DNA from: an uncultured Lachnospiraceae bacterium
GTDB lineage: Bacteria; Bacillota; Clostridia; Lachnospirales; Lachnospiraceae
Assembly: GCA_944384105.1 (NCBI GenBank)
Contig: CALWSC010000055.1
Location: 1-38,518 of the forward strand
DNA: 38,518 nucleotides
Direction of reading: 5' to 3'
The notes under the pieces were generated by a model. That model did not search any database. It had not been told where the DNA came from and saw only the letters and a program-made list of their open reading frames with translations. Shown here in pieces: positions 8,884 through 26,514 of the stretch (the first letter of the stretch is position 1; each line of letters starts with the position of its first letter). A program made the position numbers and the translations under genes.

Positions 8884-8906
8884 GTTGCCCGGTTATGCCG
8901 GGCAAC
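8884..8906. terminator. Hairpin between convergent prolyl isomerase and lacI-type genes
   Basis: GTTGCCCGG (8884-8892) pairs with CCGGGCAAC (8898-8906) around TTATG. It overlaps the last codons of the minus-strand regulator. There is no strong U-tract on either strand, so termination efficiency is uncertain. Confidence 0.5.
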
Positions 8907-9918
8907 AGTTGTTTACACTCATCCGCTCCCGCAGCCGCGCAGAGACTTCGATTTTGATCGGCGGCTCGGCAGTCTGAGAAATGCGATGGACGAGACGCTC
9001 TACGGCGAGCTTGCCAAGATACTGTTTCGGAACCTCCATGGTTGTAAGCGGAGGTTCGAGAAAATCGCATACAGGCATGTCGTCGAAGCCGATGAGGGAG
9101 ATGTCGTCCGGAATGGAGTAGCCGCACTCCCTGAAAGCGCGCATCGCTCCTGCCGCAATCAGGTCATTGTCCGCGAAATATGCCTGCGCTGTCTCAATAT
9201 GTCCGTCCTGCAAAAGATGCAGCATATCCTGATATGCGCCTTCGATGGACGGTGTCAGGCGGTGGACATACGGGTGTTCCGTTGGAATCCGGCGGTGGCG
9301 CAGAGCTTTGTAATACCCGTCCGCGCGCTCGGCGAAATTGCCGATCGGATAGGAGGAACGCAGATAACCCACCCGCGTCAGTCCGCTGTCAATCAGATAA
9401 TTTGTCGCCAGATACGCCCCCTGTACATTGTTGATAAGGACGGAATCGCAGTCCAGTTCCTCAAAATACGTATCCAGCACGACGAGCGGCATCTTCAGGC
9501 TGCGGAAATAGTGAAAATACTCCTTCTCAAGCTCCGTTCCGAGCAGCAGCAGCCCCTGAAACGTCTTATCTGCAAGCGCGCGGATTTGCGCATGGATATC
9601 CTGGTTGGCATAAAAATAAGAAATCTGCAGATCAAATCCGGCTTCCTTGCAGCCCTGGTCGATCCCCTCCGTGAGCTGGGCGAAAAAGTGCGTATCTGTC
9701 ACGACAGCTCCGTCTTTTTTATAAATCACAAGCTGGATGGCGCCCTTCGGCGCATCCGGATCTCCTTTTTTTGACAGATCATATCCATATTCCCGCGCTG
9801 CGGCGAGAACTAGATTTCTGGTCTTTTCGCTGATTCCGGGTTTGCGGTTCAGCACCATGGAAACTGTGGCAGCAGACAGGTTCAGCTTCTGCGCCAGTTC
9901 TTTTGCTGAAATTGCCAT
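8893..9918 (-). CDS. LacI-family transcriptional regulator
   Basis: This 341-residue regulator has the canonical LacI N-terminal helix-turn-helix (ISAKELAQKLNLSAATVSMVLN, residues 3-24) with the hinge after it and a periplasmic-binding-protein-like effector domain containing DISLIGFDDMPVCDFLEPPLTT near residue 280. The start is set at 9918 because AGAGGAGG lies just upstream; an ATG 24 codons earlier would add residues foreign to the family. It is divergent from the isomerase-transketolase-kinase-glycosidase operon and so is probably its local repressor, with a pentose or glycoside-derived sugar as inducer. The effector is not known. A TTGACA/TAGGAT promoter is seen upstream, and TTTCTGAA occurs twice, 18 bases apart (9933-9940 and 9951-9958), in its leader. 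Confidence 0.93.
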   Translation of the reverse strand: MAISAKELAQKLNLSAATVSMVLNRKPGISEKTRNLVLAAAREYGYDLSKKGDPDAPKGAIQLVIYKKDGAVVTDTHFFAQLTEGIDQGCKEAGFDLQISYFYANQDIHAQIRALADKTFQGLLLLGTELEKEYFHYFRSLKMPLVVLDTYFEELDCDSVLINNVQGAYLATNYLIDSGLTRVGYLRSSYPIGNFAERADGYYKALRHRRIPTEHPYVHRLTPSIEGAYQDMLHLLQDGHIETAQAYFADNDLIAAGAMRAFRECGYSIPDDISLIGFDDMPVCDFLEPPLTTMEVPKQYLGKLAVERLVHRISQTAEPPIKIEVSARLRERMSVNNCCPA

Positions 9919-9961
9919 TACAAAACCTCCTCTTTCTGAACCATGATTCATTTCTGAATTT

Positions 9962-9990
9962 ATCCTACCTGATTTTCCCACTGGTGTCAA
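9962..9990 (-). promoter_or_regulatory. Promoter of the lacI-type regulator
   Basis: On the minus strand TTGACA (plus 9985-9990) and TAGGAT (plus 9962-9967) are 17 bases apart. The start codon at 9918 is about 44 bases downstream. Confidence 0.65.
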
Positions 9991-10032
9991 TAGAAGTTTA
10001 GTTGTGATTAAGAAAAATTAAATGAGATTAAG

Positions 10033-10061
10033 TTGACAATTCAAAAATAATTAAGTATAAT
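10033..10061 (+). promoter_or_regulatory. Near-consensus sigma-A promoter of the sugar operon
   Basis: TTGACA (10033-10038), a 17-base spacer and TATAAT (10056-10061) match both consensus boxes exactly. It drives the operon starting at 10135. A promoter this strong would need tight repression, which fits the divergent LacI-type gene. Confidence 0.88.
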
Positions 10062-10080
10062 CTGGGTATAAACTTAAAAG

Positions 10081-10100
10081 AATTAAACGGAAATTTAATT
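10081..10100. promoter_or_regulatory. Candidate operator palindrome in the sugar operon leader
   Basis: AATTAAA (10081-10087) and TTTAATT (10094-10100) form a perfect inverted repeat around CGGAAA. It lies about 13 bases downstream of the predicted transcription start, a position where bound repressor would block transcription. The length is that of a LacI-family site, but the centre does not match the common central CG pattern. It may also simply reflect AT-rich sequence. Confidence 0.45.
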
Positions 10101-10134
10101 AATGATTTATCAAAAGAAAGAGAGGATGACGATT

Positions 10135-11541
10135 ATGGCTGAGATTACCTTGGGATTTGCCCCAACCAGAAGGAGTATTTTCAGCGCTCCAGATGCTTTG
10201 AAATTTGCGGGATTGACTAAAAAAAGATTAAATGAACTTCAGGTAAAGTTCGTAGATATTGATGATATTAACGAGGAGGGGCTTCTTTATAATGACGATG
10301 ATCTTCAGAAGATTATTAAAAAATTTCAGGAAGCCGGTGTGGACGGTCTTTTCCTGCCGCACTGCAACTTCGGTACAGAGTATGTCTGCGCAAGACTGGC
10401 AAAGGCGCTGAATGTCCCGGTGCTGCTCTGGGGTCCGAGAGACGAGCGGCCGGATGAGAACGGCGTCCGTCTGAGGGACAGTCAGTGCGGTCTGTTTGCC
10501 ACAGGAAAGGTACTTCGCAGATTCCGTGTGCCGTTTACATATCTGACGAACTGCCGCCTGACAGACCCTGCGTTTGCAAACGGTATCCGAAATTTCCTTG
10601 CTGTCTGCAACGTGGTGAAAGTTTTCCGCCGTACACGAATCCTCCAGATCGGACCGCGTCCCTTCGACTTCTGGTCTACGATGTGCAATGAGGGAGAGCT
10701 GCTGGAGAAATTTAATATTCAGTTATCCCCCGTGCCGATTCCGGAACTGACCTCCGAGATGAAGAAAGCCAAGGAGGAGAAAATTCCGGTCGATGAGGTC
10801 ATGGACTACTGCCGCGCCAACATGTGTATTAAAATCAAAGACAGTGAGCTTGAAAACGTGGCGGCTCTCAAGGTGGCAATGAAACGGCTGGCACAAAAGT
10901 ATGGCTGCAATGCCATAGCAATCCAATGCTGGAACGCGCTGCAGAGTGAGATCAGTATTATGCCGTGCGCGGCAAATTCTCTGCTGAACGAGGAGGGGAT
11001 TCCGGTTGTCTGCGAGACAGATATTCACGGCGCGGTCACTGCGGTTCTTGCCGAGGCAGCGGGTATGGACGAGGCGAGGACATTCTTTGCAGACTGGACG
11101 GTGCGTCATCCGGACAATGAGAATGGAGAACTGCTGCAGCACTGCGGTCCGTGGCCGATTTCGGTCGCCAGGGAAAAGCCGGCAATCGGATATCCGCTCG
11201 CATTTGATCATCCGGGCGCTGTGGAGGCCGAGGCAAAGCACGGAGACATGACGCTTTGCCGCTTTGACGGAGACAACGGCGAATATTCACTGCTGCTGGG
11301 ACACGCAAAAGGTGTGGATGGGCCGTACACCAAGGGCACCTATGTGTGGGTGGAGGTCGAGAACCTGAAGCGTCTGGAGAACAAGCTCGTCTGCGGACCG
11401 TATATTCACCACTGTGTGGGTATTCACAAAGATGTTGTGCCGGTTCTTTATGAGGCGTGCAAATATATCGGCATAAAGCCGGATCTGTACGATCCAATAG
11501 AAGAAGAGGTAAAAGAGGCAGTCTATAATCCTGTAAAATGA
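10135..11541 (+). CDS. L-fucose/L-arabinose isomerase-fold sugar isomerase
   Basis: The 468-residue product belongs to the FucI/AraA-like sugar isomerase superfamily. It starts ITLGFAPTRRSIFS, has a Rossmann-like N-terminal region (DGLFLPHCNFGTEYVCARLA, VPVLLWGPRDERP), and ends with a barrel-like domain. Candidate metal-binding residues are in VVCETDIHGAVTAVLAEAAG and in the C-terminal GPYIHHCVGIHKD. These enzymes interconvert aldoses and ketoses using a divalent metal. With the transketolase and FGGY kinase genes after it, it is the best candidate to convert an imported aldopentose, possibly D-apiose, to its ketose. Substrate is inference, and I am not sure that characterised apiose isomerases belong to this family. 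The ATG at 10135 is preferred over one at 10126 because AGAGAGGA is better spaced from it. Confidence 0.8.
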   Translation: MAEITLGFAPTRRSIFSAPDALKFAGLTKKRLNELQVKFVDIDDINEEGLLYNDDDLQKIIKKFQEAGVDGLFLPHCNFGTEYVCARLAKALNVPVLLWGPRDERPDENGVRLRDSQCGLFATGKVLRRFRVPFTYLTNCRLTDPAFANGIRNFLAVCNVVKVFRRTRILQIGPRPFDFWSTMCNEGELLEKFNIQLSPVPIPELTSEMKKAKEEKIPVDEVMDYCRANMCIKIKDSELENVAALKVAMKRLAQKYGCNAIAIQCWNALQSEISIMPCAANSLLNEEGIPVVCETDIHGAVTAVLAEAAGMDEARTFFADWTVRHPDNENGELLQHCGPWPISVAREKPAIGYPLAFDHPGAVEAEAKHGDMTLCRFDGDNGEYSLLLGHAKGVDGPYTKGTYVWVEVENLKRLENKLVCGPYIHHCVGIHKDVVPVLYEACKYIGIKPDLYDPIEEEVKEAVYNPVK

Positions 11542-11553
11542 CGGAGGTCAAAG

Positions 11554-12384
11554 ATGGAGAATTTAAAAGCAAAGGCATTTGCACTGAGAAAAAATGTACT
11601 GGACATGATATACGGCGCCAAAACTGGTCATATCGGGGGCGATTTCAGTGTCATGGAGATACTGGTCAGCCTGTATATGAAGGAGATGAATATAAGCCCT
11701 GAAAATCAGGACGACCCGGACAGAGATTATTTCGTGATGAGTAAGGGGCACTCCGTGGAGGCGTACTATTCCGTGCTGGCGGAAAAAGGATTCTTCCCAA
11801 TCGGGGAGGTGATTGAAAATTTCTCCCGCTTCGGGTCCAAATTTATCGGTCATCCGAACAACAAGCTTCCGGGCATTGAGATGAACTCCGGCTCGCTGGG
11901 ACACGGACTTCCGGTGTGCGTCGGCATTGCGAAAGCATGTAAGATGGACGGGCGCCCCAGCCGTGTGTATACCGTGATGGGGGACGGCGAGCTTGCGGAG
12001 GGCTCCGTATGGGAGGGCGTGATGGCCGCGTCTCACTATAAGCTTGATAACCTGTGCGCAACTGTAGACAGAAATCGGCTGCAGATTTCGGGCAGTACGG
12101 AAGATGTTATGCATCATGAAAATTTAAAGGCACGGTTTGCGGCATTTGGCTGGAACGTGATTTCCGTGGACGGAAACGATATCGATGCGCTGTGCGCGGC
12201 ATATGACGAGGCTAAGACGGTGAAAGGCTGTCCGACGGTCGTGATAGCAAATACGATAAAGGGATGTGGAGTATCCTTCATGGAAAATCAGGCAGGATGG
12301 CATCATAAGGTGCCGGATCAGGCGCAGTATGAACAGGCGGTAAGAGAACTTACAGAGAAAGAGGAGGCGGCACGAAATGAATAA
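11554..12384 (+). CDS. Transketolase, N-terminal (TPP-binding) subunit
   Basis: This 276-residue protein is the N-terminal half of a split transketolase. It carries the thiamine diphosphate motif (MGDGELAEGSVWEG, with a following DNLCATVDRN) and the substrate-side His motifs GHIGGDFSVMEIL and SKGHSVEAYY. GGAGG precedes the start. It overlaps the C-terminal subunit by 8 bases, as expected for a heteromeric enzyme. Transketolases move a two-carbon ketol unit between sugar phosphates. In the reported D-apiose pathway a two-subunit transketolase (AptA/AptB) converts apulose 4-phosphate and glyceraldehyde 3-phosphate into dihydroxyacetone phosphate and xylulose 5-phosphate, and this gene may be AptA. 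A general pentose phosphate role is the alternative. Enzyme family is sure, substrate is not. Confidence 0.93.
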   Translation: MENLKAKAFALRKNVLDMIYGAKTGHIGGDFSVMEILVSLYMKEMNISPENQDDPDRDYFVMSKGHSVEAYYSVLAEKGFFPIGEVIENFSRFGSKFIGHPNNKLPGIEMNSGSLGHGLPVCVGIAKACKMDGRPSRVYTVMGDGELAEGSVWEGVMAASHYKLDNLCATVDRNRLQISGSTEDVMHHENLKARFAAFGWNVISVDGNDIDALCAAYDEAKTVKGCPTVVIANTIKGCGVSFMENQAGWHHKVPDQAQYEQAVRELTEKEEAARNE

Positions 12385-13309
12385 GATTCCAAACAGGCAG
12401 GCAATCTGCGAAGTGCTCAGTGAGACGGCGAAAACAGATAAGGATATCGTAGTGCTCTGCAGCGATTCCAGAGGAAGCGCATCCCTGGCGCCGTTTGCAG
12501 AGGCGCATCCTGACCAATTCGTGGAGGTGGGAATCGCAGAACAGAACCTGGTGAGCATTTCCGCAGGAATGGCTAAGGCGGGCAAGCGTCCGTTTGCAGC
12601 ATCCCCGGCGTGTTTTTTGAGTACCAGAAGCTATGAGCAGGCAAAGGTTGACGTCGCTTACTCAAATACGAATGTAAAGCTGATCGGCATCAGCGGGGGA
12701 ATCAGCTACGGTGCGCTTGGCATGAGTCATCACTCTGCGCAGGATTTCGCGGCGATGTGTGCGATCCCGAATATGCGTGTCTATGTGCCGAGCGACCGCC
12801 ATCAGACGAAAAAGCTGATGGAGGAGCTTGTGAAGGACGACAAGCCGGCATATATCCGCGTGGGAAGAAATCCGGTGGAGGATATTTATGACGGAGAGGA
12901 TACTCCGTTTGAGATGAACCGGGCCACGGTGCTTTGCGAGGGAACAGATGCGGCAATCATTGCATGCGGAGAAATGGTGCGGCCTGCAAAGGAGGCTGCA
13001 GAGATACTCAGGCAGCGGGGGATATCGGCGTCTGTCCTGGATATGTACTGCTTAAAGCCGCTGGATGAAGAGAGCATTATCTGTGCGGCATCGGCGGCAA
13101 AGGTGGTCGTCAGTGTGGAGGAACACGCGCCGTTCGGAGGATTAGGCTCCATGGTAAGCCAGGTCGTGGCGTCAAACTGTCCGAGAAAGACTGTGACGAT
13201 GGCTCTGCCGGATGCACCTGTAATCACCGGAACCTCGAAAGAAGTGTTCGATTATTACGGGCTGAATGCTGAGGGGATTGCCGGGAAAGTGACGGAGCTG
13301 TTATCATGA
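12377..13309 (+). CDS. Transketolase, C-terminal subunit
   Basis: The 310-residue partner of the preceding gene contains the pyrimidine-binding domain with the activating Glu in VEVGIAEQNLVSISAGMA and a C-terminal transketolase domain (SVLDMYCLKPLDEESI, VVSVEEHAPFGGLGS). It would assemble with the N-terminal subunit into the active enzyme in the cytoplasm. Its start overlaps the upstream stop by 8 bases, and its stop overlaps the kinase start (ATGA at 13306-13309). The C half of 1-deoxyxylulose 5-phosphate synthase is related, but the split form and the neighbours argue for a transketolase. It may correspond to AptB of apiose catabolism; this is inference from the cluster. Confidence 0.92.
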   Translation: MNKIPNRQAICEVLSETAKTDKDIVVLCSDSRGSASLAPFAEAHPDQFVEVGIAEQNLVSISAGMAKAGKRPFAASPACFLSTRSYEQAKVDVAYSNTNVKLIGISGGISYGALGMSHHSAQDFAAMCAIPNMRVYVPSDRHQTKKLMEELVKDDKPAYIRVGRNPVEDIYDGEDTPFEMNRATVLCEGTDAAIIACGEMVRPAKEAAEILRQRGISASVLDMYCLKPLDEESIICAASAAKVVVSVEEHAPFGGLGSMVSQVVASNCPRKTVTMALPDAPVITGTSKEVFDYYGLNAEGIAGKVTELLS

Positions 13310-14802
13310 ATGAAAAGTATGTGATAGGAATTGATCAGAGCACCCAGGGAACAAAGGGTCTGCTGTTCGGCAGTAAAGGTGAGCTTCTCTGCCGGGCAGA
13401 CAGGGTACACAGGCAGATCATCGATGAACGCGGCTGGGTGGAACACGATCCGGAGGAGATCTATCGCAATACAGTGGCGGTGATCAGGGATCTGATAAAA
13501 AAAAGCGGTATTGATCCGGGCGCGGCAGCGTGTATTGGAATAAGTAATCAGAGAGAGACGGCGCTTGCGTGGAACCGCAGGACAGGGAAGCCTGTGTATA
13601 ATGCGATTGTATGGCAGTGCGCCCGCGGCGAGGAGATCTGCCGCCGCCTTGTTCATGAGGATCCGGGATTTGAGGCAGAGGTAAAGGCGCGCACAGGGCT
13701 GCAGTTATCGCCGTATTTTTCTGCTGCAAAGCTTGCCTGGATTATGGAGCAGGTGCCGGGCGTCAGGGAGCGGGCCTGGCAGGGGGAAATCTGCTGCGGG
13801 ACTGTGGATAGCTGGCTGATTTTCAAGCTGACCGGTGGAAAAGAGTTCCGTACAGATTATTCCAATGCGTCCAGAACGCAGCTGTTTCACATCACAGAGC
13901 TTCGATGGGATAAAGAGCTCTGCGGCAAGTTTGGTATCCCTGAAAAGTGTCTGCCGCAGCTTACGGATTCTGACGGAGTATTCGGTATGACGGATGCCGA
14001 GGGAATTTTCCCGCATCCGATTCCGATACACGGCGTGCTGGGGGACTCGCATGGCGCGCTGTTCGGGCAGGGCTGCACAGAGCGCGGAATGATGAAGACG
14101 ACGTACGGCACCGGATCATCTATCATGATGAATATCGGAGAAAAGCCGATATTCTCCGATCTGGGGATTGTGACGTCCCTTGCCTGGAAGAGAGAGGGAA
14201 AAGTGCAGTATGTACTTGAGGGAAATGTTAATTATACCGGAGCAGTCATCACATGGTTAAAAGATGATGTGGGAATTCTCGAGAGCGCCGCACAGTCAGA
14301 GGAGCTTGCCCGGAAGGCAAACCCGGCAGATAAGACGTATCTGGTGCCGGGATTTTCCGGCCTGGGCGCACCGTACTGGCGCAGTGATGTGTCCGCCATA
14401 TTCTGCGGAATGAGCAGAACAACCGGCAGAGCCGAGCTGGTGCGGGCAGGGCTTTCCAGCATTGCGTATCAGATTGCGGATATTGTAAGGCTGATGAAGG
14501 AAGCGGCGGATATCGGTGAAGTACAGCTGCGCGTCGACGGCGGGCCGACGAGAAACGGCTGGCTGATGCAGTTCCAGAGCGATATCCTTGCCAGCCGCGT
14601 GGAGGTTCCCGCCGCGGAAGAGCTTTCCGGTATTGGCGCGGCATATGCGGCAGGCATCGGGGCGGGCATCTACTGTGCAGATGAACTATTCTCCCGCATG
14701 AGCCGGACGGAATTTAAACCGCAGATGACGCAGGAGGAGCGCATGGATAAATACTGCGGCTGGCAGGCAGCGGTACAGATGGCGCTGGGTCAGAAAGGGT
14801 AA
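13306..14802 (+). CDS. FGGY-family carbohydrate kinase
   Basis: The 498-residue product matches FGGY sugar kinases in length and motifs: IGIDQSTQGTKGLLFG at the start (phosphate-binding loop), SNQRETALAWNRRTGKP, a DSWLIFKLTGG block, YGTGSSIMMN, and GGPTRNGWLMQFQSDIL toward the C-terminus. Such enzymes phosphorylate xylulose, ribulose, glycerol or related polyols and ketoses with ATP. Lying between a split transketolase and glycosidases, downstream of an aldose-ketose isomerase, it is likely to phosphorylate the ketose made by that isomerase; apulose is a good candidate. The YGTGSS and SNQRETALAW blocks look slightly glycerol-kinase-like, so glycerol kinase or xylulokinase remain possible. Its start overlaps the transketolase stop (ATGA). 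Confidence 0.92.
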   Translation: MNEKYVIGIDQSTQGTKGLLFGSKGELLCRADRVHRQIIDERGWVEHDPEEIYRNTVAVIRDLIKKSGIDPGAAACIGISNQRETALAWNRRTGKPVYNAIVWQCARGEEICRRLVHEDPGFEAEVKARTGLQLSPYFSAAKLAWIMEQVPGVRERAWQGEICCGTVDSWLIFKLTGGKEFRTDYSNASRTQLFHITELRWDKELCGKFGIPEKCLPQLTDSDGVFGMTDAEGIFPHPIPIHGVLGDSHGALFGQGCTERGMMKTTYGTGSSIMMNIGEKPIFSDLGIVTSLAWKREGKVQYVLEGNVNYTGAVITWLKDDVGILESAAQSEELARKANPADKTYLVPGFSGLGAPYWRSDVSAIFCGMSRTTGRAELVRAGLSSIAYQIADIVRLMKEAADIGEVQLRVDGGPTRNGWLMQFQSDILASRVEVPAAEELSGIGAAYAAGIGAGIYCADELFSRMSRTEFKPQMTQEERMDKYCGWQAAVQMALGQKG

Positions 14803-14806
14803 TCGT

Positions 14807-16333
14807 ATGGAATATAAGGAATATGTTGAAAGATGGGGGATGCAGGAGATTACGGTTCATGGACCATCCGATGGAAATCCATTTCAGGATTACCGTCTGA
14901 GCGGAACCTTCAGCGGCAGAAGCGAGACCGTGCAGACAGAGGGCTTTTATGACGGAGACGGTATGTATAAGATACGCTTTCTCCCGTCCTTTGAGGGAGA
15001 ATATCGCTTTCAACTGCAGGGAAATTTCACAGAGGCAAATCGGGAGGGAAAATTTTGCGTGACTGCGCCCGGGGAAGGGAATCATGGGCCTGTGCGAGTG
15101 GCGAATACCTATCATTTTGCGTATGAGGATGGAACGCCGTATTATCCGATCGGAACGACGTGTTATGTGTGGGAACTTCAGTCAGATGAGAGAATTTTGC
15201 AGACGCTTGAGAGTCTGCGGGAAGCAAGATTTAACAAGATACGTTTCTGTATTTTTCCGAAGCACTACGCGTATAATCTTGGAGAGCCGCGCTCGTATCC
15301 GTATGAGGGTACTCCGATGGACAGCAGTGTACTCACAGATGAGAACTTCTCACAGTATACGGATAAAACAGAGGGGAATCACTGGGATTTCACGCGTTTT
15401 AATCCGAAGCACTTTCGGCATATCGAGAACTGCATTATGGAACTGCAGAAACTGGGGATAGAGGCGGATATCATTGTAATGCATCCGTATGATCGCTGGG
15501 GCTTTTCCAATATGACGAAGGAGCAGGATGATTTCTGCTGGAATTATGTGATTGCGCGTTTTGCGGCGTTTCGGAATGTCTGGTGGTCACTTGCCAATGA
15601 ATATGACCTGTTAAAGCACAAGACCATTGCTGACTGGGAGAGATTCGCGCAGATTATCTGTAAGAAGGATCCGTACAGCCATCTGCGCTCTGTGCACAAC
15701 TGCCATCCGTTCTATGATTATAAGCGCCCGTGGGTGACGCACTGCAGCATTCAGCGCCAGGAGCTGTATCAGACAGCAGAGTATACAGATCAATGGAGAA
15801 AGGCGTTTGGGAAACCGGTGGTACTGGATGAGATCTGCTATGAGGGAAATATTCAGTATGCATGGGGGAATATAACTGCACAGGAAATGGTACGCCGCTT
15901 CTGGGAAGCTGCATGCCGGGGAGGGTATCCGGGGCACGGAGAGACATACTTAAATGCAGACAATGTGCTGTGGTGGTCGCATGGCGGAAAGCTGAGGGGA
16001 GAGAGCTGGGAACGTTTCGGTTTCCTGCTGGATCTTCTAAAGGAGACTCCGGGTCTTGGACTGGCACCGTATGAGAAGCGCTGGGACTGTGTCTGCGCGG
16101 TGCCGGAGGACGAGTGGCGCAGAGAAGTAAAAAGTTATTATCTGATTTATTACAGCTTCATGCAGCCCTCTTTCCGGGAATTCTATTTTGACGATGAGAC
16201 AGAATTTGAGATCGAGGTCATTGATACCTGGAATATGACAATAGAAAAACAGGGAACAGGAAAGGGCAGATTCACCGTGAGGCTGCCTGGCAGGCAGTAT
16301 ATGGCAGTGCGGTTACGAACAGTGAAGCACTGA
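14807..16333 (+). CDS. Apiosidase-like glycoside hydrolase with N-terminal DUF5060 domain
   Basis: This 508-residue protein has an N-terminal beta-sandwich of about 95 residues (DUF5060-like, starting YVERWGMQEITVHGPSDGNPF), a TIM-barrel domain of the DUF4038/apiosidase-like type (about 105-400), and a C-terminal beta domain (DUF5605-like). Candidate catalytic acids are Glu265 in WWSLANEYDLL and Glu342 in PVVLDEICYEG, placed as acid/base and nucleophile of a retaining clan GH-A enzyme. The catalytic type relates to GH140 apiosidase; I infer but cannot prove that it cleaves an apiosyl linkage. There is no signal peptide, so it acts in the cytoplasm on imported glycosides. It starts 4 bases after the kinase stop, in the same operon. 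Confidence 0.78.
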   Translation: MEYKEYVERWGMQEITVHGPSDGNPFQDYRLSGTFSGRSETVQTEGFYDGDGMYKIRFLPSFEGEYRFQLQGNFTEANREGKFCVTAPGEGNHGPVRVANTYHFAYEDGTPYYPIGTTCYVWELQSDERILQTLESLREARFNKIRFCIFPKHYAYNLGEPRSYPYEGTPMDSSVLTDENFSQYTDKTEGNHWDFTRFNPKHFRHIENCIMELQKLGIEADIIVMHPYDRWGFSNMTKEQDDFCWNYVIARFAAFRNVWWSLANEYDLLKHKTIADWERFAQIICKKDPYSHLRSVHNCHPFYDYKRPWVTHCSIQRQELYQTAEYTDQWRKAFGKPVVLDEICYEGNIQYAWGNITAQEMVRRFWEAACRGGYPGHGETYLNADNVLWWSHGGKLRGESWERFGFLLDLLKETPGLGLAPYEKRWDCVCAVPEDEWRREVKSYYLIYYSFMQPSFREFYFDDETEFEIEVIDTWNMTIEKQGTGKGRFTVRLPGRQYMAVRLRTVKH

Positions 16334-16381
16334 GAAATGTTGCAGGAGAGAAAGCAATAAAAGCGACCGGGAGGAAGAATC

Positions 16382-19027
16382 ATGCTGAATATAAAGAGAA
16401 TTCATATAGACTATCAGACAAATCCCGCGGGCATTTCCGAAGCGCCGCAGTTTGGCTGGGAGATGGAAAGTGACAGGCGCGGCGTGCTTCAGAAGTTTTA
16501 TGAACTGCAGATCGCGGAGGATGAGGAGTTTAACCGTATAGTATATGACAGCGGCAGGATTGAGAGCCAAAGCTCCGCGCAGGTTCGCGCGGAGGGATTT
16601 GAGATCGGGCCGATGAGAAAATATTATGTCCGCGCCGCAGTGTCTGACGGAGAGGAGCAAAGCGGGTGGGGTGAAGCAGCGCATTTTATTACAGCGCTTA
16701 CTGATCCGGCACAGTGGGAAGCGCCTTTTGTATCTGCTGAAACGGATGCATCTTTTCGTGAGTGTTCAAAGGGGACATATGTACGCGGAACCTTCGTACT
16801 AAGGAGAGGGATAAAGAAGGCGTTTGCCTGCACAACGGCGCTGGGACTCTATAACTTCTATCTGAATGGTCAAAAAGTCGGGGACGATGAGATGACGCCG
16901 GGTTGGACATCATATCAGAAGCATCTGCTGTATCAGACGTATGAAGTGACGGAATATCTGCGAGAGGGAGAAAACAGTGCGGGAGCAATGCTTGGCGCCG
17001 GATGGTATAAGGGCGTCATGGGGCTTACAAAGGCGCGCAATAATTATGGAGATCAGACAGGCTTTGCGATGCAGCTTCTGGTACGCTATGAGGACGGTAC
17101 ACAGGAGACCGTCTGCACGAACGACGGCTGGAAGGGTGCAGATTCTCCGATTGTATTCTCGGAGATTTATGACGGAGAAATCTATGACGCGTCAAAGGAG
17201 ATTCCCGGCTGGTCACACCCCGGAGAGCCGCAGGGAAATTGGAGATATACGGTTAGGGTTCCGTTTAACACCTCCGCACTCTGTGCACAGAGCGGGTCGC
17301 GCGTAAAGATGATGGATCGGATGCCCGCAAAGAGTGTGTTTCTTACGCCAAAAGGTGAGACAGTTATAGATTTCGGACAGAATATGACGGGCAGAATTCA
17401 TGTAACTGCCACGGGACGCACCGGTGATGTGATTGAGCTGCGCTGCTTTGAGGTGCTGGATCATGAGGGGAATGTATACCTGGACAATCTGCGCGGCGCA
17501 AAGACAACAATGAAATATATTTTCAGCAAAGACGGAACGATTACCTGACATCCGCGCTTTACTTATATGGGCTTTCAGTATGCTCTTGTAATCAGTTATC
17601 CGGGCAGGCCGACAGCAGAGAACTTTACAGCTTATACGCTGCACTCGGAAATGGAGCGCACCGGAAACATCGAATGTTCCAATCCGCTGCTGAATCAGCT
17701 CCATCATAATTACCTATGGGGATTAAAGGGGAATTTCCTCGATGTGCCCACCGACTGCCCCCAGCGCGATGAACGTCTCGGCTGGACCGGAGACGCCCAG
17801 ATTTTCTGCCGCACGGCATGTTATCTGATGAATACCTATACATTCTATAAAAAATGGCTCCGGGACGTGGAGGCAGATCAGACGGAGGAGGGCGGCGTAC
17901 CGCACGTGATTCCGAACATAGAAGAGGGAAAGACGGACGGCAACTGGCTTCTGAGCCAGGGACCGCATTCGGCGGCGGCATGGGCAGATGTGGCTGTTAT
18001 TGCTCCCTGGACACTGTATTTGATGTACGGAGACAGGGAAATTCTGAGCCGGCAGTACCGCAGTATGAAGGGCTGGATCAATTTTATGAAGAACCACTCG
18101 GAAGATTATATCTGGAATTATAAGCTTCAGTTCGGCGACTGGGTGGCGCTGGACGCCGAGGAGGGAAGCTACTTCGGGGCAACGCCGAATGATCTGACAT
18201 GTACGGCATACTTCGCGTACTCGACGGGGCTGTTTGCGAAAATTGCCAAAGTGCTGGGTGAGGAGAAGGATGCCCGGGATTACGGGGAACTCTATCTTAA
18301 TATTGTCAGAAAATTCCAGGATACCTTCTTTGATGAAAGCGGAAATATGACAGCGCAGACACAGACCGCTCATATCGTAGCGCTGTATTTTGGGCTTACT
18401 CCCAAGAAGTATATTCCTCAGACAGTCAAAAGCCTAAAGCGCCTGCTGGCAAAGGAGAACGGCCATCTGGTGACTGGATTTGTGGGAACGCCGTATTTCT
18501 GTCATGCGTTAAGCCAGAATGGCTGCGTAAAGGAGGCGTATGACCTGCTCTTAAAGGAGGACTTCCCTTCCTGGCTGTATCAGGTGAAGATGGGCGCTAC
18601 TACGATCTGGGAACACTGGGACGGCTTAAAGCCGGACGGCAGTATGTGGAGCGCGGATATGAATTCCTTTAATCACTATGCATACGGAGCCATTGGAGAG
18701 TGGATGTACCGTGTGATGGCGGGTATCGAGGCGGACGAACACTGTACCGGATTTAAACATGCTATCTTTTATCCGCGCATCGGCGGCGGGCTTACCTATG
18801 TGGACGGGACATACCATTCCGTTTATGGAGAGGAAGGTGTGCGCTGGGAGAATAATGAGGGAATCATCACCATGACGGTAAAAATTCCGGCAAATACCAC
18901 TGCGGCAGTTAGGCTGGATGAAGCGAAGGAAGTACTCGAAAGTGACGGGCTTAGCTTTGAGAGAAAAGAAAACTATATGGAAGCGAATGCCGGGTCCGGT
19001 ACATACAGGATTGTGTACAGGAGATGA
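16382..19027 (+). pseudogene. GH78 alpha-L-rhamnosidase interrupted by one in-frame TGA
   Basis: Two segments, 16382-17545 and 17549-19027, share one reading frame and together give a full-length GH78 protein of about 880 residues. The first carries the beta-sandwich domains (TTALGLYNFYLNGQKVGDDE, AGWYKGVMG). The second carries the (alpha/alpha)6 catalytic barrel with PTDCPQRDERLGWTGDAQ, in which Asp458, Glu464 and Asp471 are the expected acidic residues, and the distal Glu744 in TTIWEHWDG. The only fault is TGA at 17546-17548 (codon 389), where relatives usually have Trp before the PRFTYMGFQY block; TGG to TGA is one base change. No signal peptide is present. The last operon gene, it would remove alpha-L-rhamnose from imported glycosides. 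It may be a fresh pseudogene, an assembly error, or a leaky stop. Confidence 0.85.
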
Positions 19028-19075
19028 CAGAAGAGAAACACGAAGAAAGAATCGGGAATAAATCAAGGGAAACGC

Positions 19076-21112: not shown

Positions 21113-22222
21113 ATGAAGAATGTACAGTTACTGATAAAGCCCGCGTCATCGCTCTGCAACCTGCGGTGCGGATACTGTTTTTACAGGGATGAGACGCAGC
21201 ACCGCGAGGTGGAAAGCCATGGGATTATGAACAGGGAGACGCTGGAGCTGACCGTAAAAAAGGCACTGGAGGCGGCGCAGGAGTCCTGCATCTTCGGCTT
21301 TCAGGGAGGAGAGCCGACCCTTGCAGGACTCGATTTCTATAAAAATGTCGTGAAGCTGGCGGAAAAATACAGGAAAGCAGAGACGTACGTCGGCTACTCG
21401 CTCCAGACAAACGGAATACTTATCAATGACGAATGGCTGGATTTTCTGGAAGAGCACCGTTTCTGGGTAGGGCTGTCCATAGACGGCGACCGCGCGATCC
21501 ATGACCGCAACCGTCCGGACGCGCAGGGGAAGGAGACATATGCCCGCACGGTGAAGGTATGGAAGGAGCTGCAGAGGCGGCACAAAAACTCCACAGTTTT
21601 GTGCGTGCTGACCCGCCAGAGTGCCCGCCGCATTCGTTCAGTCTATGAGAATTTTAAGAAAATCGGTGCCTTCCAGCTTCAATTCATTCCCTGCCTCGAC
21701 CCGATGGAAAAGGAGCGCGGACAGGAGGCTTATTCTCTGACGCCGAAGCTCTATGCGGAAGCTTTAAAGACGCTGTTTGACATGTGGTTTGAGGATCTGC
21801 AAAAGGGAGTGGGGGTCTACATCCGGACGTTTGAGAACTATATTGGTATTCTGCGCGGACAGCCGCCGGAGGCGTGTGCAATGTACGGACGATGCAGCCA
21901 GCAGAACGTGGTGGAGGCGGACGGATCAATATATCCGTGCGACTTTTACGCCCTGGATGAATACTGTCAGGGAAATATCCGCGACACAGATTTTGAGAAG
22001 ATCCGTGAGAATATCGGCAGAGACCCGTTCTTTGCGGATGCCGAAAGGCGGGGAGACGGCTGTGCGTCGTGCCATTGGTACCCGCTGTGCCGCGGCGGCT
22101 GCCGCAGAGACTGTTTTGAGGATGCGCAGCATATCAGAAAGAATTATTACTGCGAGGCGTACCGGGAATTTTTTGCCTATGCGATCAGCCGCCTGGAATA
22201 CCTTGCGGGAGCGATACGATAA
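21113..22222 (+). CDS. Radical SAM/SPASM protein, anaerobic sulfatase-maturase type
   Basis: The 369-residue protein has the radical SAM CxxxCxxC motif (Cys15, Cys19, Cys22 in SSLCNLRCGYCFYRD), the GGEPTLAGLDF motif and, at the C-terminus, a SPASM domain rich in cysteines (CSQQNVVEADGSIYPCDF, then CASCHWYPLCRGGC) that binds extra iron-sulfur clusters. This matches anaerobic sulfatase-maturating enzymes, which oxidise a Cys or Ser of a sulfatase to formylglycine. No sulfatase is present in the window, so the target is elsewhere or is another protein. GGAGG lies before the start. Peptide-modifying SPASM enzymes are a less likely alternative. Confidence 0.88.
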   Translation: MKNVQLLIKPASSLCNLRCGYCFYRDETQHREVESHGIMNRETLELTVKKALEAAQESCIFGFQGGEPTLAGLDFYKNVVKLAEKYRKAETYVGYSLQTNGILINDEWLDFLEEHRFWVGLSIDGDRAIHDRNRPDAQGKETYARTVKVWKELQRRHKNSTVLCVLTRQSARRIRSVYENFKKIGAFQLQFIPCLDPMEKERGQEAYSLTPKLYAEALKTLFDMWFEDLQKGVGVYIRTFENYIGILRGQPPEACAMYGRCSQQNVVEADGSIYPCDFYALDEYCQGNIRDTDFEKIRENIGRDPFFADAERRGDGCASCHWYPLCRGGCRRDCFEDAQHIRKNYYCEAYREFFAYAISRLEYLAGAIR

Positions 22223-22267
22223 TACAAAAAACAGAAACGATTATATAAATCGTTTTGCATAAAGGTA

Positions 22268-22276
22268 TGGTAAAAT
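22268..22276 (+). promoter_or_regulatory. Extended -10 promoter candidate for the sugar-activation genes
   Basis: TGGTAAAAT (22268-22276) is an extended -10 element (TGn plus TAAAAT) about 61 bases before the start codon at 22338; no good -35 box is seen. A small hairpin (GGCGC at 22305-22309 with GCGCC at 22317-22321) lies in the leader just ahead of the ribosome binding site. Confidence 0.45.
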
Positions 22277-22337
22277 CAAGCCATCAAGAGATCAGGAAGC
22301 AACAGGCGCTTATCTGGCGCCGGAAAGGAAGATAAAG

Positions 22338-23261
22338 ATGAAGAAACCTGCACTGGTAGTAATGGCTGCCGGAATGGGAAGCCGTTACGGAGGATTAAAG
22401 CAGATTGACCCCATTGACAGAGAGGGTCACATTATCATGGATTTTTCGATCTATGATGCAGTCAGAGCCGGATTTGAGAAAGTTGTATTTATCATAAAGA
22501 AGGAGAACGAGGCTGACTTTAAGGCGGCGATCGGGGAGAGGATCTCCAAATACGTTAAGACCGAATATGTATTCCAGGATCTTCACAATATTCCGGAAGG
22601 CTATGAGGTTCCGGAAGGACGCGTGAAGCCATGGGGTACGGGACATGCGGTATTAAGCTGTCTGGATGTAATTGACGGACCGTTCGCTGTCATAAATGCG
22701 GATGACTACTATGGACAGAACGCATTTCAGATGGCGTATGATTTTCTGACCACCCACCAGGATGATGAGAAGTATCACTACATGATGGTAGGATACATGC
22801 TGGAGAATACTCTGACCGAGAACGGACATGTGGCGCGCGGCGTATGCTGGATCGATGGAGAGGGATATCTGGCCGGTATCCATGAGAGAACGAGAATCGA
22901 GAAGCGTCCGGAAGGGGCAGCGTACACGGAGGACGACGGAGCAACCTGGCATGTCCTGCCGCAGGAAAGCATCGTATCTATGAACCTGTGGGGCTTTACG
23001 AACAGCATTCTTCCTGAGCTTACATCACGTTTTACGACATTCCTCGATGAGAACCTGCCGAAGAATCCGCTCAAGTGTGAATACTTTCTCCCGTTCGTCG
23101 TGGACGAGCTGCTGGAGGAGGGAAAAGCCGATGTGCGTGTGCTCAAGTCCCCTGACCGCTGGTACGGAGTGACGTACAAAGAGGACAAGGAGACGGTGGT
23201 AAACGCGATCCAGAGATTAAAAGACAGCGGATTATATCCCCAGAAACTCTGGGAGGAGTAA
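22338..23261 (+). CDS. Sugar-phosphate nucleotidyltransferase
   Basis: This 307-residue protein has the nucleotidyltransferase N-terminus (ALVVMAAGMGSRYGGLKQID), the nucleotide-binding loop with GxGxRxG-like spacing, and the acidic metal motif INADDYYG. It would join a sugar 1-phosphate to a nucleoside triphosphate, giving an NDP-sugar. The following kinase starts 15 bases after its stop and can make a sugar 1-phosphate, so the two probably act in sequence as a salvage or activation pathway. The specific sugar and nucleotide are not deducible. It does not closely match GlmU, GalU or RfbA in length or in motif detail. AAAGGAAG precedes the start. Confidence 0.88.
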   Translation: MKKPALVVMAAGMGSRYGGLKQIDPIDREGHIIMDFSIYDAVRAGFEKVVFIIKKENEADFKAAIGERISKYVKTEYVFQDLHNIPEGYEVPEGRVKPWGTGHAVLSCLDVIDGPFAVINADDYYGQNAFQMAYDFLTTHQDDEKYHYMMVGYMLENTLTENGHVARGVCWIDGEGYLAGIHERTRIEKRPEGAAYTEDDGATWHVLPQESIVSMNLWGFTNSILPELTSRFTTFLDENLPKNPLKCEYFLPFVVDELLEEGKADVRVLKSPDRWYGVTYKEDKETVVNAIQRLKDSGLYPQKLWEE

Positions 23262-23276
23262 GAGAGGAAAATAGAG

Positions 23277-24380
23277 ATGGACATCGGGAGAATCAAAGAG
23301 GAAGCAGCCAAGGGCTTTGTATTTCCGGAGGGGCTTACGGAGCTGATCCCCTACGGAAGCGGACATATCAATGATACGTACCGTTTGACTTTTGAATATG
23401 GCGGAAAAGTGCAGCGCTATATCCTGCAGCGCATGAATACGGAGATTTTCCGTGAACCTGAGGCATTGATGGAGAACATCATCGGCGTGACCTCCTGGCT
23501 GAAAAAGAAGATCGCGGAAAATGGCGGAGATACAGAACGCGGGACGCTCAGCCTGATTCCGGCAAAGGACGGAAAATTTTGGTATGTAGACAGCGAGGGA
23601 GGCTGGTGGAGAGCGTATAACTTCATCGAGGGAGCCACAAGCTATGACCGGGTGAAGAATAAGACGGACTTCTATGAGAGCGCTGTGGCGTTCGGGCATT
23701 TCCAGCGGCTGCTCGCAGACTATCCGGCGGAAACACTGCACGAGACCATTCCGGATTTTCACAACACCGCTGACCGCCTGGAAAAATTTAAGGCTGCTGC
23801 TGCGGCTGACGTCTGCGGCAGGGCTGCCGGCGTGCAGAAGGAGATTCAGTTTGTGCTTGAGAGAGAAGCGCTTGCAAACCTGCTGTGCGGGATGCAAAGA
23901 GAGGGGAAGCTGCCTCTGCGCGTAACGCACAATGATACAAAGCTGAATAATATCATGATCGATGACGTGACAGGAAAGGGAATCTGCGTCATCGATCTGG
24001 ATACCGTGATGCCGGGGCTTTCCGTAAATGATTTCGGTGATTCCATCCGTTTTGGCGCAAGCACTGCTGCTGAGGACGAGCGGGATCTGTCAAAGGTATC
24101 CTGCAGTATGGAGCTGTTTGAAACATATGCAAGGGGATTCCTGAAGGGATGTGCCGGAAAGCTTACAGATGCCGAGATAGAGATGCTTCCTGAGGGGGCC
24201 ATGACGATGACGTTTGAGTGCGGCATGCGTTTCCTCACGGATTATCTGGAGGGCGACACATACTTTAAGATCCACAGGGAGGACCATAATCTCGATCGCT
24301 GCCGGACTCAGTTTAAGCTTGTAAAAGACATGGAGGAGAAGCTGCCGGAAATGAAGAAAATCATTGCTGGGCTTGTCTGA
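23277..24380 (+). CDS. APH-family phosphotransferase, N-acetylhexosamine 1-kinase-like
   Basis: The 367-residue product has the aminoglycoside-phosphotransferase/choline kinase fold. Residue blocks include YGSGHINDTYRL near the start, LPLRVTHNDTKLNNIMID (catalytic loop with Asp and Asn) and ICVIDLDTVMPG (metal-binding Asp). This matches the group containing NahK, which phosphorylates GlcNAc and GalNAc at C1. The preceding nucleotidyltransferase would use a sugar 1-phosphate, which supports this reading. An antibiotic-modifying role is unlikely given the context. The following AraC gene starts 3 bases after the stop, so the three genes form one unit. The exact hexose is unknown. Confidence 0.85.
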   Translation: MDIGRIKEEAAKGFVFPEGLTELIPYGSGHINDTYRLTFEYGGKVQRYILQRMNTEIFREPEALMENIIGVTSWLKKKIAENGGDTERGTLSLIPAKDGKFWYVDSEGGWWRAYNFIEGATSYDRVKNKTDFYESAVAFGHFQRLLADYPAETLHETIPDFHNTADRLEKFKAAAAADVCGRAAGVQKEIQFVLEREALANLLCGMQREGKLPLRVTHNDTKLNNIMIDDVTGKGICVIDLDTVMPGLSVNDFGDSIRFGASTAAEDERDLSKVSCSMELFETYARGFLKGCAGKLTDAEIEMLPEGAMTMTFECGMRFLTDYLEGDTYFKIHREDHNLDRCRTQFKLVKDMEEKLPEMKKIIAGLV

Positions 24381-25329: not shown

Positions 25330-26514
25330 TCAGATTTTTTCGTGATTGCGGAACTTTGTCAGCACCTTCTGGATGCGCTCCGCAGGATTTAAGAGCTTGC
25401 TGATTGAGGAATCGTGATTCAGCGTATCAATGATAAGCGCAATATACTTGCTCAGATCACAGCTGATATAGTACGGTCTCTCGAGAAGCTCCGGAGTCTG
25501 GTATACCAGGTTTGTCGTCAGAAGATAGTCGAACAGACCCTCCTCATATGCTTTGTCAAAACGCTCCATGCCGTTTGTGAACAGTCCGAACGTTGCACAC
25601 AGGAAGATCTTGCCCGCATTGCGTTTCTTAAGCAGTCCTGCAACCTCGAGCATACTGTCGCCGGAGGAGATCATGTCGTCAACGATAATCATGGATTTGC
25701 CGGCAACATTTGCGCCGAGGAACTCATGCGCTACGATCGGGTTTCGTCCGTCTACAATTGTGGAATAGTCGCGGCGTTTGTAGAACATTCCCATGTCCAC
25801 GCCGAGATTGTTCGCGATATAGATCGCGCGGCTCATCGCTCCTTCATCCGGGCTGATGACCATGAGGTGATCCTTGTCAATCTGCAGATCCGGCGCATTG
25901 CGCAGGATATTTTTGATAAACTGATACGCAGGCTGAACTGTCTCGAAGCCATGCAACGGGATTGCGTTCTGGACGCGGGGATCATGCGCGTCAAAGGTGA
26001 TGATATTCTCAACGCCCATGTTTGTGAGCTCCTGAAGCGCCAGAGCGCAGTCGAGCGACTCACGGTTGGAGCGCCTGTGCTGGCGGCTCTCATAGAGGAA
26101 CGGCATAATTACATTGATGCGGCGCGCCTTGCCGCCGACAGCGGCGATCACACGTTTTAAATCCTGATAATGATCATCCGGGGACATATGGTTCTCTTTG
26201 CCGGACATGGAGTATGTCAGGCTGGAATTGCACACATCGACCATAAAGTACAGGTCATCTCCGCGCACCGACTCCTTGAGAACGCCCTTTGCCTCGCCGG
26301 AACCGAAGCGAGGGGACGCGGAATTGATGATATACGTGTCGCGCTCGTAGCCGTCAAAGGCGAGCGTGTGCTTTGCCTCGTGCTCCCGTTCCTTTCTCCA
26401 CTCTACCAGATAGCGGTCGACCTTCTCGCCGAGCTGCGCACAGCTCCGCAGGGGAATAATGCCGAGTCTCCCGTACGGCAGGTTCTCGTAATAATTCTCA
26501 GTGTTCTGACTCAT
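25330..26514 (-). CDS. prs: Ribose-phosphate pyrophosphokinase (PRPP synthetase), long form
   Basis: This enzyme makes PRPP from ribose 5-phosphate and ATP for nucleotide, His and Trp synthesis. Typical motifs are DAHDPRVQNAIP, KRRDYSTIVDGRNP and the PRPP-binding loop MIIVDDMISSGDSM. At 394 residues it is longer than the classical form (about 315), with an extended N-terminus and an insertion around SMSGKENHMSPDDHYQDL. The usual PYFGYARQDR stretch reads PFLYESRQHRRSNRES, so it is a divergent class; I assume it is active because the key acidic loop is kept. Its start overlaps the stop of the helicase loader gene (ATGA, 26511-26514), which links it to replication genes. Confidence 0.92.
   Translation of the reverse strand: MSQNTENYYENLPYGRLGIIPLRSCAQLGEKVDRYLVEWRKEREHEAKHTLAFDGYERDTYIINSASPRFGSGEAKGVLKESVRGDDLYFMVDVCNSSLTYSMSGKENHMSPDDHYQDLKRVIAAVGGKARRINVIMPFLYESRQHRRSNRESLDCALALQELTNMGVENIITFDAHDPRVQNAIPLHGFETVQPAYQFIKNILRNAPDLQIDKDHLMVISPDEGAMSRAIYIANNLGVDMGMFYKRRDYSTIVDGRNPIVAHEFLGANVAGKSMIIVDDMISSGDSMLEVAGLLKKRNAGKIFLCATFGLFTNGMERFDKAYEEGLFDYLLTTNLVYQTPELLERPYYISCDLSKYIALIIDTLNHDSSISKLLNPAERIQKVLTKFRNHEKI

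Follow-up and report, generated by a model that had tools for sequence, protein, structure and literature searches.

The question raised by a group of genes at positions 8893-19027 of the window (the whole stretch of DNA analysed here, 38,518 nucleotides from an uncultured Lachnospiraceae bacterium) is which sugar their products degrade, and from what source that sugar comes. Apiose is a branched sugar found in plant cell walls. A D-apiose pathway consisting of an isomerase, a kinase and a transketolase was reportedly described by Carter et al. in 2018 (MetaCyc PWY-8089). The cited portion of PMC13001218 reports growth on D-apiose for three Escherichia coli strains and one E. fergusonii strain carrying a cluster of the type used here as reference, as well as for P. 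carotovorum, whose cluster includes apsI, and states that Bacteroides and Clostridia had already been shown to degrade apiose. The reference copy in our comparisons is that of E. coli SE15, which is not among the strains listed as grown in that portion of the paper. No paper on the present operon in Firmicutes was found in the open-licence literature.

Here we describe an operon whose core, judged from its sequence, very probably encodes the D-apiose pathway (isomerase, kinase and two-subunit apulose-4-phosphate transketolase), and which we regard as a further instance of a pathway already known. The full explanation, a LacI-controlled cytosolic D-apiose operon fed by imported oligosaccharide, appears likely as well. 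A linked gene cassette, described below, is a more novel lead than the apiose core.

Gene organization of the locus

All of the genes named in the first-pass annotation were found at 8893-19027. A LacI-family regulator gene on the minus strand (8893-9918; Pfam LacI and Peripla_BP_3, with the ATG at 9918 taken from the translated reading frame) diverges, as had been claimed, from an operon on the plus strand. The operon begins with an aldose-ketose isomerase of the FucI/AraA type (10135-11541), predicted to be a D-apiose isomerase; its reading frame opens at 10102, but alignment with relatives starts only at the ATG of position 10135. There follow an AptA-like N-terminal transketolase subunit (11554-12384), an AptB-like C-terminal subunit (12377-13309), an FGGY kinase predicted to be an apulose kinase (13306-14802), a glycosidase predicted to be a cytosolic apiosidase (14807-16333), and an interrupted GH78 alpha-L-rhamnosidase reading frame (16382-19027). 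The tight packing noted earlier is also seen: the transketolase halves overlap by 8 bp, the C-terminal half and the kinase by 4 bp, and a gap of 4 bp separates the kinase from the glycosidase.

The association of isomerase, transketolase and kinase is not a chance grouping. Of the 80 best isomerase loci, 68 contain the isomerase together with both transketolase halves and the kinase; among the remaining 12 there are 9 whose contig breaks off no more than about 1.3 kb past the isomerase. Culturable relatives such as Blautia luti (locus L050) and Eisenbergiella porci (L036) also have the operon. A LacI-like gene is present in the locus of 51 of the 80 relatives, and it is divergent from the isomerase in 28 of the 80, besides the window and loci L004 and L005. 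Ahead of the isomerase gene sits a perfect sigma-70 consensus (TTGACA-17-TATAAT, 10033-10061, plus strand), recognized by its 12/12 consensus match only; shuffled sequence averages 9.5 sigma-70-like sites and the region holds 12, which leaves the perfect match as the only notable one. Upstream of the isomerase, an AT-rich palindrome turns up more often than chance would predict (11 of 31 divergent loci carry it with 3 mismatches or fewer, where shuffles yield about 1), in a test that is partly circular because the pattern was derived from the same 31 loci. Its copy in the window is poor (5 mismatches), and no LacI operator is claimed there.

Transketolase, kinase and isomerase

The first-pass annotation had named a grouping with xylulose or glycerol enzymes as the outcome that would speak against apiose. 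The window transketolase instead falls in one clade with AptAB of the enterobacterial apiose clusters (support 97/86), apart from 28 other split transketolases. It shares with the enterobacterial proteins 17 diagnostic columns (8 in AptA, 9 in AptB), defined by conservation in 90% or more of 66 Firmicute-type pairs and in all 4 enterobacterial pairs, each being present in no more than 10% of 48 others; AptB has Leu where TktA has Asp469. Identity to the SE15 proteins is 44% for AptA and 36% for AptB, and AptA is closer (49%) to the genome's own other transketolase, which belongs to a separate clade and adjoins a gene named from its sequence as a probable transaldolase.

The kinase does belong to the GlpK superfamily, as does the reference apulose kinase, which scores 495 bits against the GlpK model; in both proteins two residues of the glycerol pocket are substituted. 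In raw identity the window kinase is closer to GlpK (42-45%) than to AplK (38.5%); the figure for SE15 AplK is 40%. Gln246 and Phe270, two glycerol-pocket residues of GlpK, are both Ser in the window kinase; Ser occupies both positions in 27 of 27 apiose-locus kinases, and Gln and Phe are found in 11 of 11 GlpK sequences. The kinase tree does not join the window kinase with AplK; forcing the two together is not rejected (AU p 0.303), nor is a placement of AplK with GlpK (AU p 0.38). GlpK as the true function is set aside on the replaced pocket residues, not on the tree.

The isomerase is 27-28% identical to the isomerase of three enterobacterial apiose-type clusters, which we take to be ApsI from its place in the cluster, the records not carrying that name. 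Residues E294, D320, H336 and H426 are invariant in 14 sequences. The E. coli apiose cluster itself lacks ApsI. Three plasmid-collection records with the enterobacterial kinase (at 70-72%) also carry a homologue of the window isomerase.

Alternative substrates

The operon might serve another pentose or a deoxysugar, of the arabinose, ribose or xylose type, with a generic isomerase and kinase and a pentose-phosphate transketolase. The predicted isomerase fold is indeed closest to L-arabinose isomerases (TM about 0.7-0.8, model pLDDT 73), and related isomerases of 40-58% identity adjoin other kinases, in four loci together with a FucA-like aldolase, and mostly lack AptAB. The orthologue of the window isomerase, however, is accompanied by AptA, AptB and kinase in the 68 loci noted above, and the transketolase lies outside the clade of the genome's other enzyme, the neighbour of the probable transaldolase; we consider this alternative improbable. 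Still further from credible, with a probability close to nil, is the sulfo-transketolase route for sulfoquinovose. It would combine an SftI-like isomerase with a split transketolase, and in NCBIfam the isomerase matches sulfoquinovose isomerase (NF048012) and nothing else. At 112 bits that match is far below the cut-off of 700, and an equally weak one (118.7 bits) is obtained with the isomerase from the apiose-type cluster of Sodalis; moreover, no sulfoquinovosidase or sulfonate gene appears in the Pfam results for the operon, which does contain a kinase. To our knowledge, a kinase is not expected in that route.

It is highly improbable, too, that the kinase acts on glycerol or dihydroxyacetone and rides along with a pathway of some other kind. 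Its score exceeds the cut-off of the NCBIfam subfamily PRK00047 (573 versus 498), and every one of its 29 PDB matches at E<=1e-60 is a glycerol kinase or has a similar name, but it misses the GlpK equivalog cut-off (567.5 versus 590.35), Q246 and F270 are replaced, and a second kinase of the genome (G000:C10) falls in the GlpK clade. The D-apiose pathway is supported by the Apt-clade transketolase, by the replaced kinase pocket residues and by synteny with an importer, apiose-type ABC importer genes lying beside the operon in 21 of 80 related loci (BLAST criterion).

Glycosidases of the operon

In the glycosidase, Pfam finds DUF5060, PF13204 ('Apiosidase'; 62 bits, cut-off 26.5) and DUF5605, and the predicted catalytic residues E265 and E342 are invariant in 14 sequences. 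The description of this protein as apiosidase-like holds for its domain, but its kinship to GH140 is not close: a phmmer comparison with GH140 structures 5msy and 8t9w gave no match at E<=0.01. It shares the PF13204 domain and a TIM-barrel fold with the GH140 beta-apiosidases (BT1012, 8t9w), and differs from them in its low identity (14-15% in fold matches), in having DUF5060 and DUF5605, and in its nearest PDB structure, 4n0r (360 bits), a putative glycoside hydrolase (BVU_0362). Among the 34 genomes that have the glycosidase gene, 13 place it no further than 10 kb from the isomerase, where about 0.16 would be expected; the other 21 have no copy that close, and in one of them (G209) both genes are at or near contig ends. 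We think that the enzyme probably acts on an apiosyl bond.

The GH78 gene was not borne out as intact. Reading frames 16382-17548 and 17567-19027 share one frame, with a single UGA at codon 389 (17546-17548) between them, either a true stop or an assembly error; a frameshift is thereby ruled out. Pfam finds GH78 domains on both sides of the UGA, and relatives, among them congener G299, have full-length copies. By eye, no signal peptide is visible in either the glycosidase or GH78.

The source of apiose

No importer was found within the window, and the genome, which is 78% complete, contains no close match to the binding protein of the E. coli apiose cluster (best 28%). An apiose ABC importer is not universal in such loci: that of Listeria carries a PTS. 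Another contig of the same genome, C41, carries a pectin-like locus with GH127, GH106-like, GH2, GH42, GH78 and GH29 genes, esterases and ABC permeases. The congener copy of this GH127, in G299, is nearest to 5mqo (544 bits; next 321), which we take to be the aceric-acid hydrolase BT1003. A 5mqo-like GH127 is found in 17 of 299 family genomes, and 16 of those 17 have the apiose isomerase, a co-occurrence that favours rhamnogalacturonan-II (RG-II) as the apiose source. The first-pass annotation had proposed plant apiosides or pectin fragments; of these, the partner loci speak for pectin RG-II rather than flavonoid apiosides. RG-II is, in our estimate, probably the main source. That apiose should come mainly from flavonoid or saponin apiosides seems rather unlikely: the small size of the window operon and glycosidases apparently devoid of signal peptides are in keeping with it, as is the joint occurrence of rhamnose and apiose in plant glycosides, but the GH127-isomerase association and the multi-glycosidase locus on C41 argue against it.

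A cassette of genes for an Asp/Glu-racemase-family enzyme, a 5mqo-like GH127, a DUF1537 kinase and BKACE (beta-keto acid cleavage enzyme) occurs in the apiose loci of G299, L080 and L089, and on C41. L-aceric acid is the branched acid sugar of RG-II, and a 3-C-carboxy sugar with a C2 ketone would be a beta-keto acid, a fitting substrate for BKACE. We tentatively suggest that the cassette may be an L-aceric acid catabolic pathway working with the apiose operon, and that the loci together may represent a Gram-positive import-then-digest strategy for RG-II.

The window appears to retain traces of rearrangement relative to G299. By eye, the spacer at 16334-16381 (plus strand) seems to join the leader of the G299 racemase gene to that of the G299 GH78 gene. 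A stretch at 19043-19061 (plus strand), matching the last 19 bp of the G299 Gfo/Idh gene, directly precedes a spacer to an SNF gene that is shared with G299, the match continuing into SNF (88.6% over 219 columns). These spacers could be read as deletions of the cassette and of the importer. The genome has not simply lost the cassette, however, for a copy is present on C41, so only loss from the apiose locus, or a move, is claimed.

Proposed pathway and comparison with known systems

We infer the substrates, direction and import route of the following scheme from the observed gene set, homology, AptAB clade, pocket residues, co-location and co-occurrence. An apiose-bearing plant oligosaccharide, likeliest from RG-II, would enter via the importer of the C41 locus; the PF13204 glycosidase would release apiose inside the cell, and GH78, interrupted here, would take off rhamnose. 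The isomerase would convert free D-apiose to apulose and the FGGY kinase apulose to apulose 4-phosphate, from which AptAB would transfer a two-carbon unit to glyceraldehyde 3-phosphate, yielding dihydroxyacetone phosphate and xylulose 5-phosphate. This last reaction is that of the published apiose pathway.

The enterobacterial pathway (E. coli ST131, Pectobacterium) likewise has a split AptAB, a GlpK-superfamily FGGY kinase, an isomerase of the same family and, as in 21 of 80 window relatives, an ABC importer. The window differs in its LacI regulator in place of a 'sugar-binding transcriptional regulator', in the distance of its isomerase, in its operon-borne glycosidases and in lacking the importer. 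The locus of Listeria monocytogenes (L005: LacI, isomerase, two transketolase subunits, kinase, PTS and DUF4038) has the same gene order, with 73% identity for the isomerase, 59% for AptA and 55% for AptB. Unlike the window, it has a kinase of just 38% identity, a beta-glucoside-type PTS and, replacing the DUF5060 protein, a DUF4038 protein with a 92-bit match to 8t9w, a GH140 apiosidase. With the Bacteroides RG-II system (BT1001, BT1003, BT1012) the genome shares apiosidase-like, rhamnosidase and 5mqo-like GH127 genes; here, however, they are spread over two contigs, with ABC import genes rather than SusCD, and at least the two window glycosidases are apparently cytosolic. PMC7939467 describes the apiosidase BT1012 and the rhamnosidase BT1001 as acting on an RG-II fragment, where they cleave the bonds of apiose and rhamnose.

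The residue markers described above would allow apulose kinase and apulose-phosphate transketolase to be recognized where sequence records speak of glycerol kinase and transketolase, and the operon suggests a role for the DUF5060/PF13204/DUF5605 proteins related to PDB 4n0r. An isomerase orthologue (at least 69% identity) in 50 of the 299 sampled family genomes suggests apiose use by about one-sixth of one family of mostly gut Firmicutes. If the link to C41 holds, it would become possible to test directly what becomes of aceric acid and how Gram-positive gut bacteria use RG-II.

The predicted apiose core

The window is one entire contig (C55) of a 2.93-Mb genome that is 78% complete, and its operon (8893-19027) is most likely a member of a known pathway, that for D-apiose. 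A perfect match to the sigma-70 consensus precedes genes for an isomerase, the split transketolase subunits AptA and AptB, an FGGY kinase, and a glycosidase, spaced successively by 12, -8, -4, and 4 bp (negative values being overlaps) and followed by an interrupted GH78 frame, with a LacI gene oriented divergently. The flanks carry spore germination, trigger-factor-like, SNF transporter, YqeY, and replication genes, among others. Genes for a radical SAM/SPASM protein, a nucleotidyltransferase, and an APH-type kinase stand consecutively at 21113-24380, perhaps a small-molecule decoration cluster, and a ribose-phosphate pyrophosphokinase-like protein (25330-26514) has 394 aa, longer than is usual for this enzyme. 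Of the named relatives, an uncultured Lachnospiraceae bacterium (locus L012) stands nearest, with an isomerase that is 91% identical.

One report names aplK, aptA, and aptB in E. coli SE15 and describes growth on D-apiose by P. carotovorum and by four Escherichia strains carrying the SE15-type cluster, three of them E. coli and the fourth E. fergusonii; the Escherichia cluster has two oxidoreductases in place of apsI (PMC13001218). Window AptA and AptB are 44% and 36% identical to their SE15 counterparts, but AptA is 49% identical to the second split transketolase of its own genome, which counts against an Apt reading. This conflict is settled by a tree of 53 concatenated pairs, in which, with long branches (enterobacterial stem 1.39), the Apt pairs form one clade (support 97/86) that excludes 28 further split transketolases from the family. 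The clade comprises 19 Firmicute-type pairs (including those of the window, Monoglobus, and Listeria), four from enterobacteria, and those of two divergent apiose-like loci (L160 and L189), and the apiose-type transketolase proposed in the first-pass annotation is thereby upheld. In an alignment of 66 Firmicute-type, four enterobacterial, and 48 other pairs, both Apt groups have 17 columns in common (at least 90% of the Firmicute-type and 4/4 enterobacterial pairs) that occur in at most 10% of the others. One corresponds to Asp469 of E. coli TktA, where Leu is found in 72/72 Apt sequences (the 66, the four, and the two divergent ones) and 1/48 others. Asp469 presumably touches the hydroxyl adjoining the cleaved bond, so its loss would fit a substrate that carries a tertiary alcohol at this point. 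His is retained at TktA positions 26, 66, 100, 261, and 473. The divergent locus L189 (4049-13000) combines its AptAB-like pair with an FGGY kinase with partial domain matches, an ABC importer, and a GH78 protein 50% identical to that of the window; no isomerase was recognized in this stretch.

By BLAST, the window kinase shares 40% identity with SE15 AplK (38.5% in a multiple alignment), and its identity to glycerol kinases (GlpK) is 42-45%. AplK itself reaches 495 bits against the GlpK equivalog model (cut-off 590), so an apulose kinase should be expected to score much as GlpK-type enzymes do. Trees give no clear branching order for the Firmicute-type, enterobacterial, and GlpK lineages, and of four groupings put to AU tests, none was rejected (p 0.15 to 0.38). 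At the positions of GlpK Gln246 and Phe270, which we take to be pocket residues under that numbering, Ser occurs in 27/27 apiose-locus kinases, whereas both residues are unaltered in 11/11 GlpK. The active-site half of the proposed kinase comparison thus separates the enzyme from GlpK, and its assignment as a predicted apulose kinase draws on pocket residues and synteny rather than on a resolved tree.

Sequence searches with the isomerase found no PDB relative, a profile search giving one chance-like match. Its predicted model (pLDDT 73) matches L-arabinose isomerases (TM about 0.7-0.8), and E294, D320, H336, and H426, invariant in 14 aligned sequences, appear to resemble what we take to be the arabinose isomerase metal-binding set. 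Homologues with 27-28% identity in Sodalis, Rahnella, and Klebsiella plasmid records sit between aptAB and an apulose-kinase homologue, with ABC genes, and by this position are taken for the apiose isomerase ApsI. Synteny, not a resolved tree, likewise underlies the assignment of the window protein as a predicted apiose isomerase. Paralogues with 28-58% identity (L161-L177) lie beside FGGY or RbsK-like kinases, mostly without AptAB and in four loci (L161, L162, L163, and L173) additionally with a FucA-like aldolase; they probably serve other sugars within the same isomerase family.

Distribution of related loci

A scan of a species-level genome collection (595 stretches) gave at least 586 relatives, of which the best 80 were kept, a set chosen by sequence proximity rather than at random. 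Among these 80, AptA is present in 77, AptB in 71, the kinase in 70, and all three in 68, while an apiose-type ABC importer occurs in 21, a DUF5060 glycosidase in 13, a DUF4038 glycosidase in three, GH78 in five, and a PTS in one. In nine of the 12 core-incomplete loci, the contig stops within ~1.3 kb past the isomerase; the exceptions with room on the contig are L016 (no kinase), L043 (none of AptA, AptB, and kinase), and L051 (no AptAB). In L016, a 904-codon open reading frame stands behind AptB, at the kinase's expected place. Among the taxa represented in this set are Blautia luti, Fusicatenibacter saccharivorans, Eisenbergiella porci, Candidatus Galacturonibacter, and Pectinatus. The operon is also found on a contig labelled Anaerolineaceae (Chloroflexota; L025, isomerase 78% identical), reflecting either transfer or a binning error. 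A Listeria monocytogenes record (L005, 4004-13086) holds a complete apiose-type cluster whose annotations go no further than isomerase family, transketolase, and glycerol kinase. It also encodes a PTS of the beta-glucoside type and a DUF4038 relative of the GH140 apiosidase 8t9w, a pairing that suggests an apiosyl disaccharide is taken up in phosphorylated form.

The glycosidase and the history of the locus

The glycosidase (DUF5060/PF13204/DUF5605; 14807-16333) had been called apiosidase-like. It shares the fold of the GH140 enzymes 5msy and 8t9w (model pLDDT 85), but at 14-15% identity the fold alone is in common and a close kinship with GH140 does not hold; the nearest solved structure is 4n0r (BVU_0362, a putative glycoside hydrolase; 360 bits). 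Two residues, E265 (in an ANE motif) and E342, do not vary among 14 sequences. Across 299 family genomes, isomerase orthologues occur in 50, the glycosidase in 34, and both in 20 (Fisher p 2e-9). The link is strong, the two lying at most 10 kb apart in 13 genomes (~0.16 expected), but not exclusive, as 21/34 glycosidase genomes have no copy within 10 kb of the isomerase. Among eight distant glycosidase places examined, LacI and ABC-like genes adjoin in two (L209 and L210, by eye), and DUF1537 and BKACE (beta-keto acid cleavage enzyme) genes in one (L214).

REARRANGEMENT. In the congener G299, the locus starts with LacI, isomerase, AptA, AptB, kinase, and glycosidase, their proteins 88-95% identical to those of the window, and continues with a racemase, GH127, a DUF1537 kinase, BKACE, and an intact GH78, then a sensor kinase, response regulator, binding protein, two permeases, an MGH1-like glycosidase, Gfo/Idh, and SNF. 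Compared with G299, the window spacer 16334-16381 looks like a join between the racemase leader with its start and the leader of GH78, and positions 19043-19061 correspond to the 3' end of the Gfo/Idh gene; in L012, a Gfo/Idh gene (70% identical) and SNF lie directly behind the kinase. Given these three features, the window locus looks like a G299-type arrangement that was probably shortened, with the importer absent and GH78 interrupted. The rhamnosidase previously placed in the operon is present as a reading frame (16382-19027), interrupted by UGA in the window and intact in G299. Gfo/Idh/MocA oxidoreductase genes stand next to the apiose core in L012 (13830-14966) and, in a second congener (L205, 1982-3109), at the opposite end of the locus, the nearest NCBIfam model for the latter being inositol dehydrogenase, far below cut-off.

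A possible link to rhamnogalacturonan-II

The four-gene cassette of G299 (Asp/Glu-racemase family, GH127, DUF1537 kinase, and BKACE) has a copy in the window's own genome on contig C41 (84-86% identical; DUF1537 73%), and another congener, G093, holds it on its C46. It recurs in L204 (5733-10649), L219 (8520-13598), L220 (11505-16423), L080 (14234-19269), L089 (213-5171), and L221-L225, with a GntR-like gene in some loci and no DUF1537 gene recognized in L225. The G299 GH127 is 5mqo-like, scoring 544 bits against that structure and 321 against the next GH127 structure; 5mqo is, we presume, BT1003. BT1003 is described as an aceric-acid hydrolase (PMC10850190), acting in rhamnogalacturonan-II (RG-II) breakdown (PMC5698469). 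The cassette is tied to the apiose isomerase across genera. A 5mqo-like GH127 (E up to 1e-140) occurs in 17/299 family genomes, 16 of them with an isomerase orthologue (p 6e-13, in a test that ignores shared ancestry, though nearly every genome comes from a different genus), and the remaining one, G247, has a 61% identical isomerase with AptAB (L160). BKACE (at least 59% identity) is found in 15 of the 299, 14 with the isomerase, shared ancestry again ignored.

Surrounding the C41 cassette are GH106-like, GH2, GH42, GH78, GH29, and esterase genes, two ABC permeases, a two-component system, and a probable binding protein (no Pfam match); for GH106, the support is weak, at 36 and 31 bits against a cut-off of 29. 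By themselves, the GH2, GH42, GH78, and GH106 genes would fit pectins other than RG-II too. Because the presumed hydrolase of the acid sugar that accompanies apiose in RG-II co-occurs with the isomerase, RG-II is our best guess as the apiose source, and the cassette may possibly constitute an aceric-acid pathway. Both this link to RG-II and the cassette merit a bench test.
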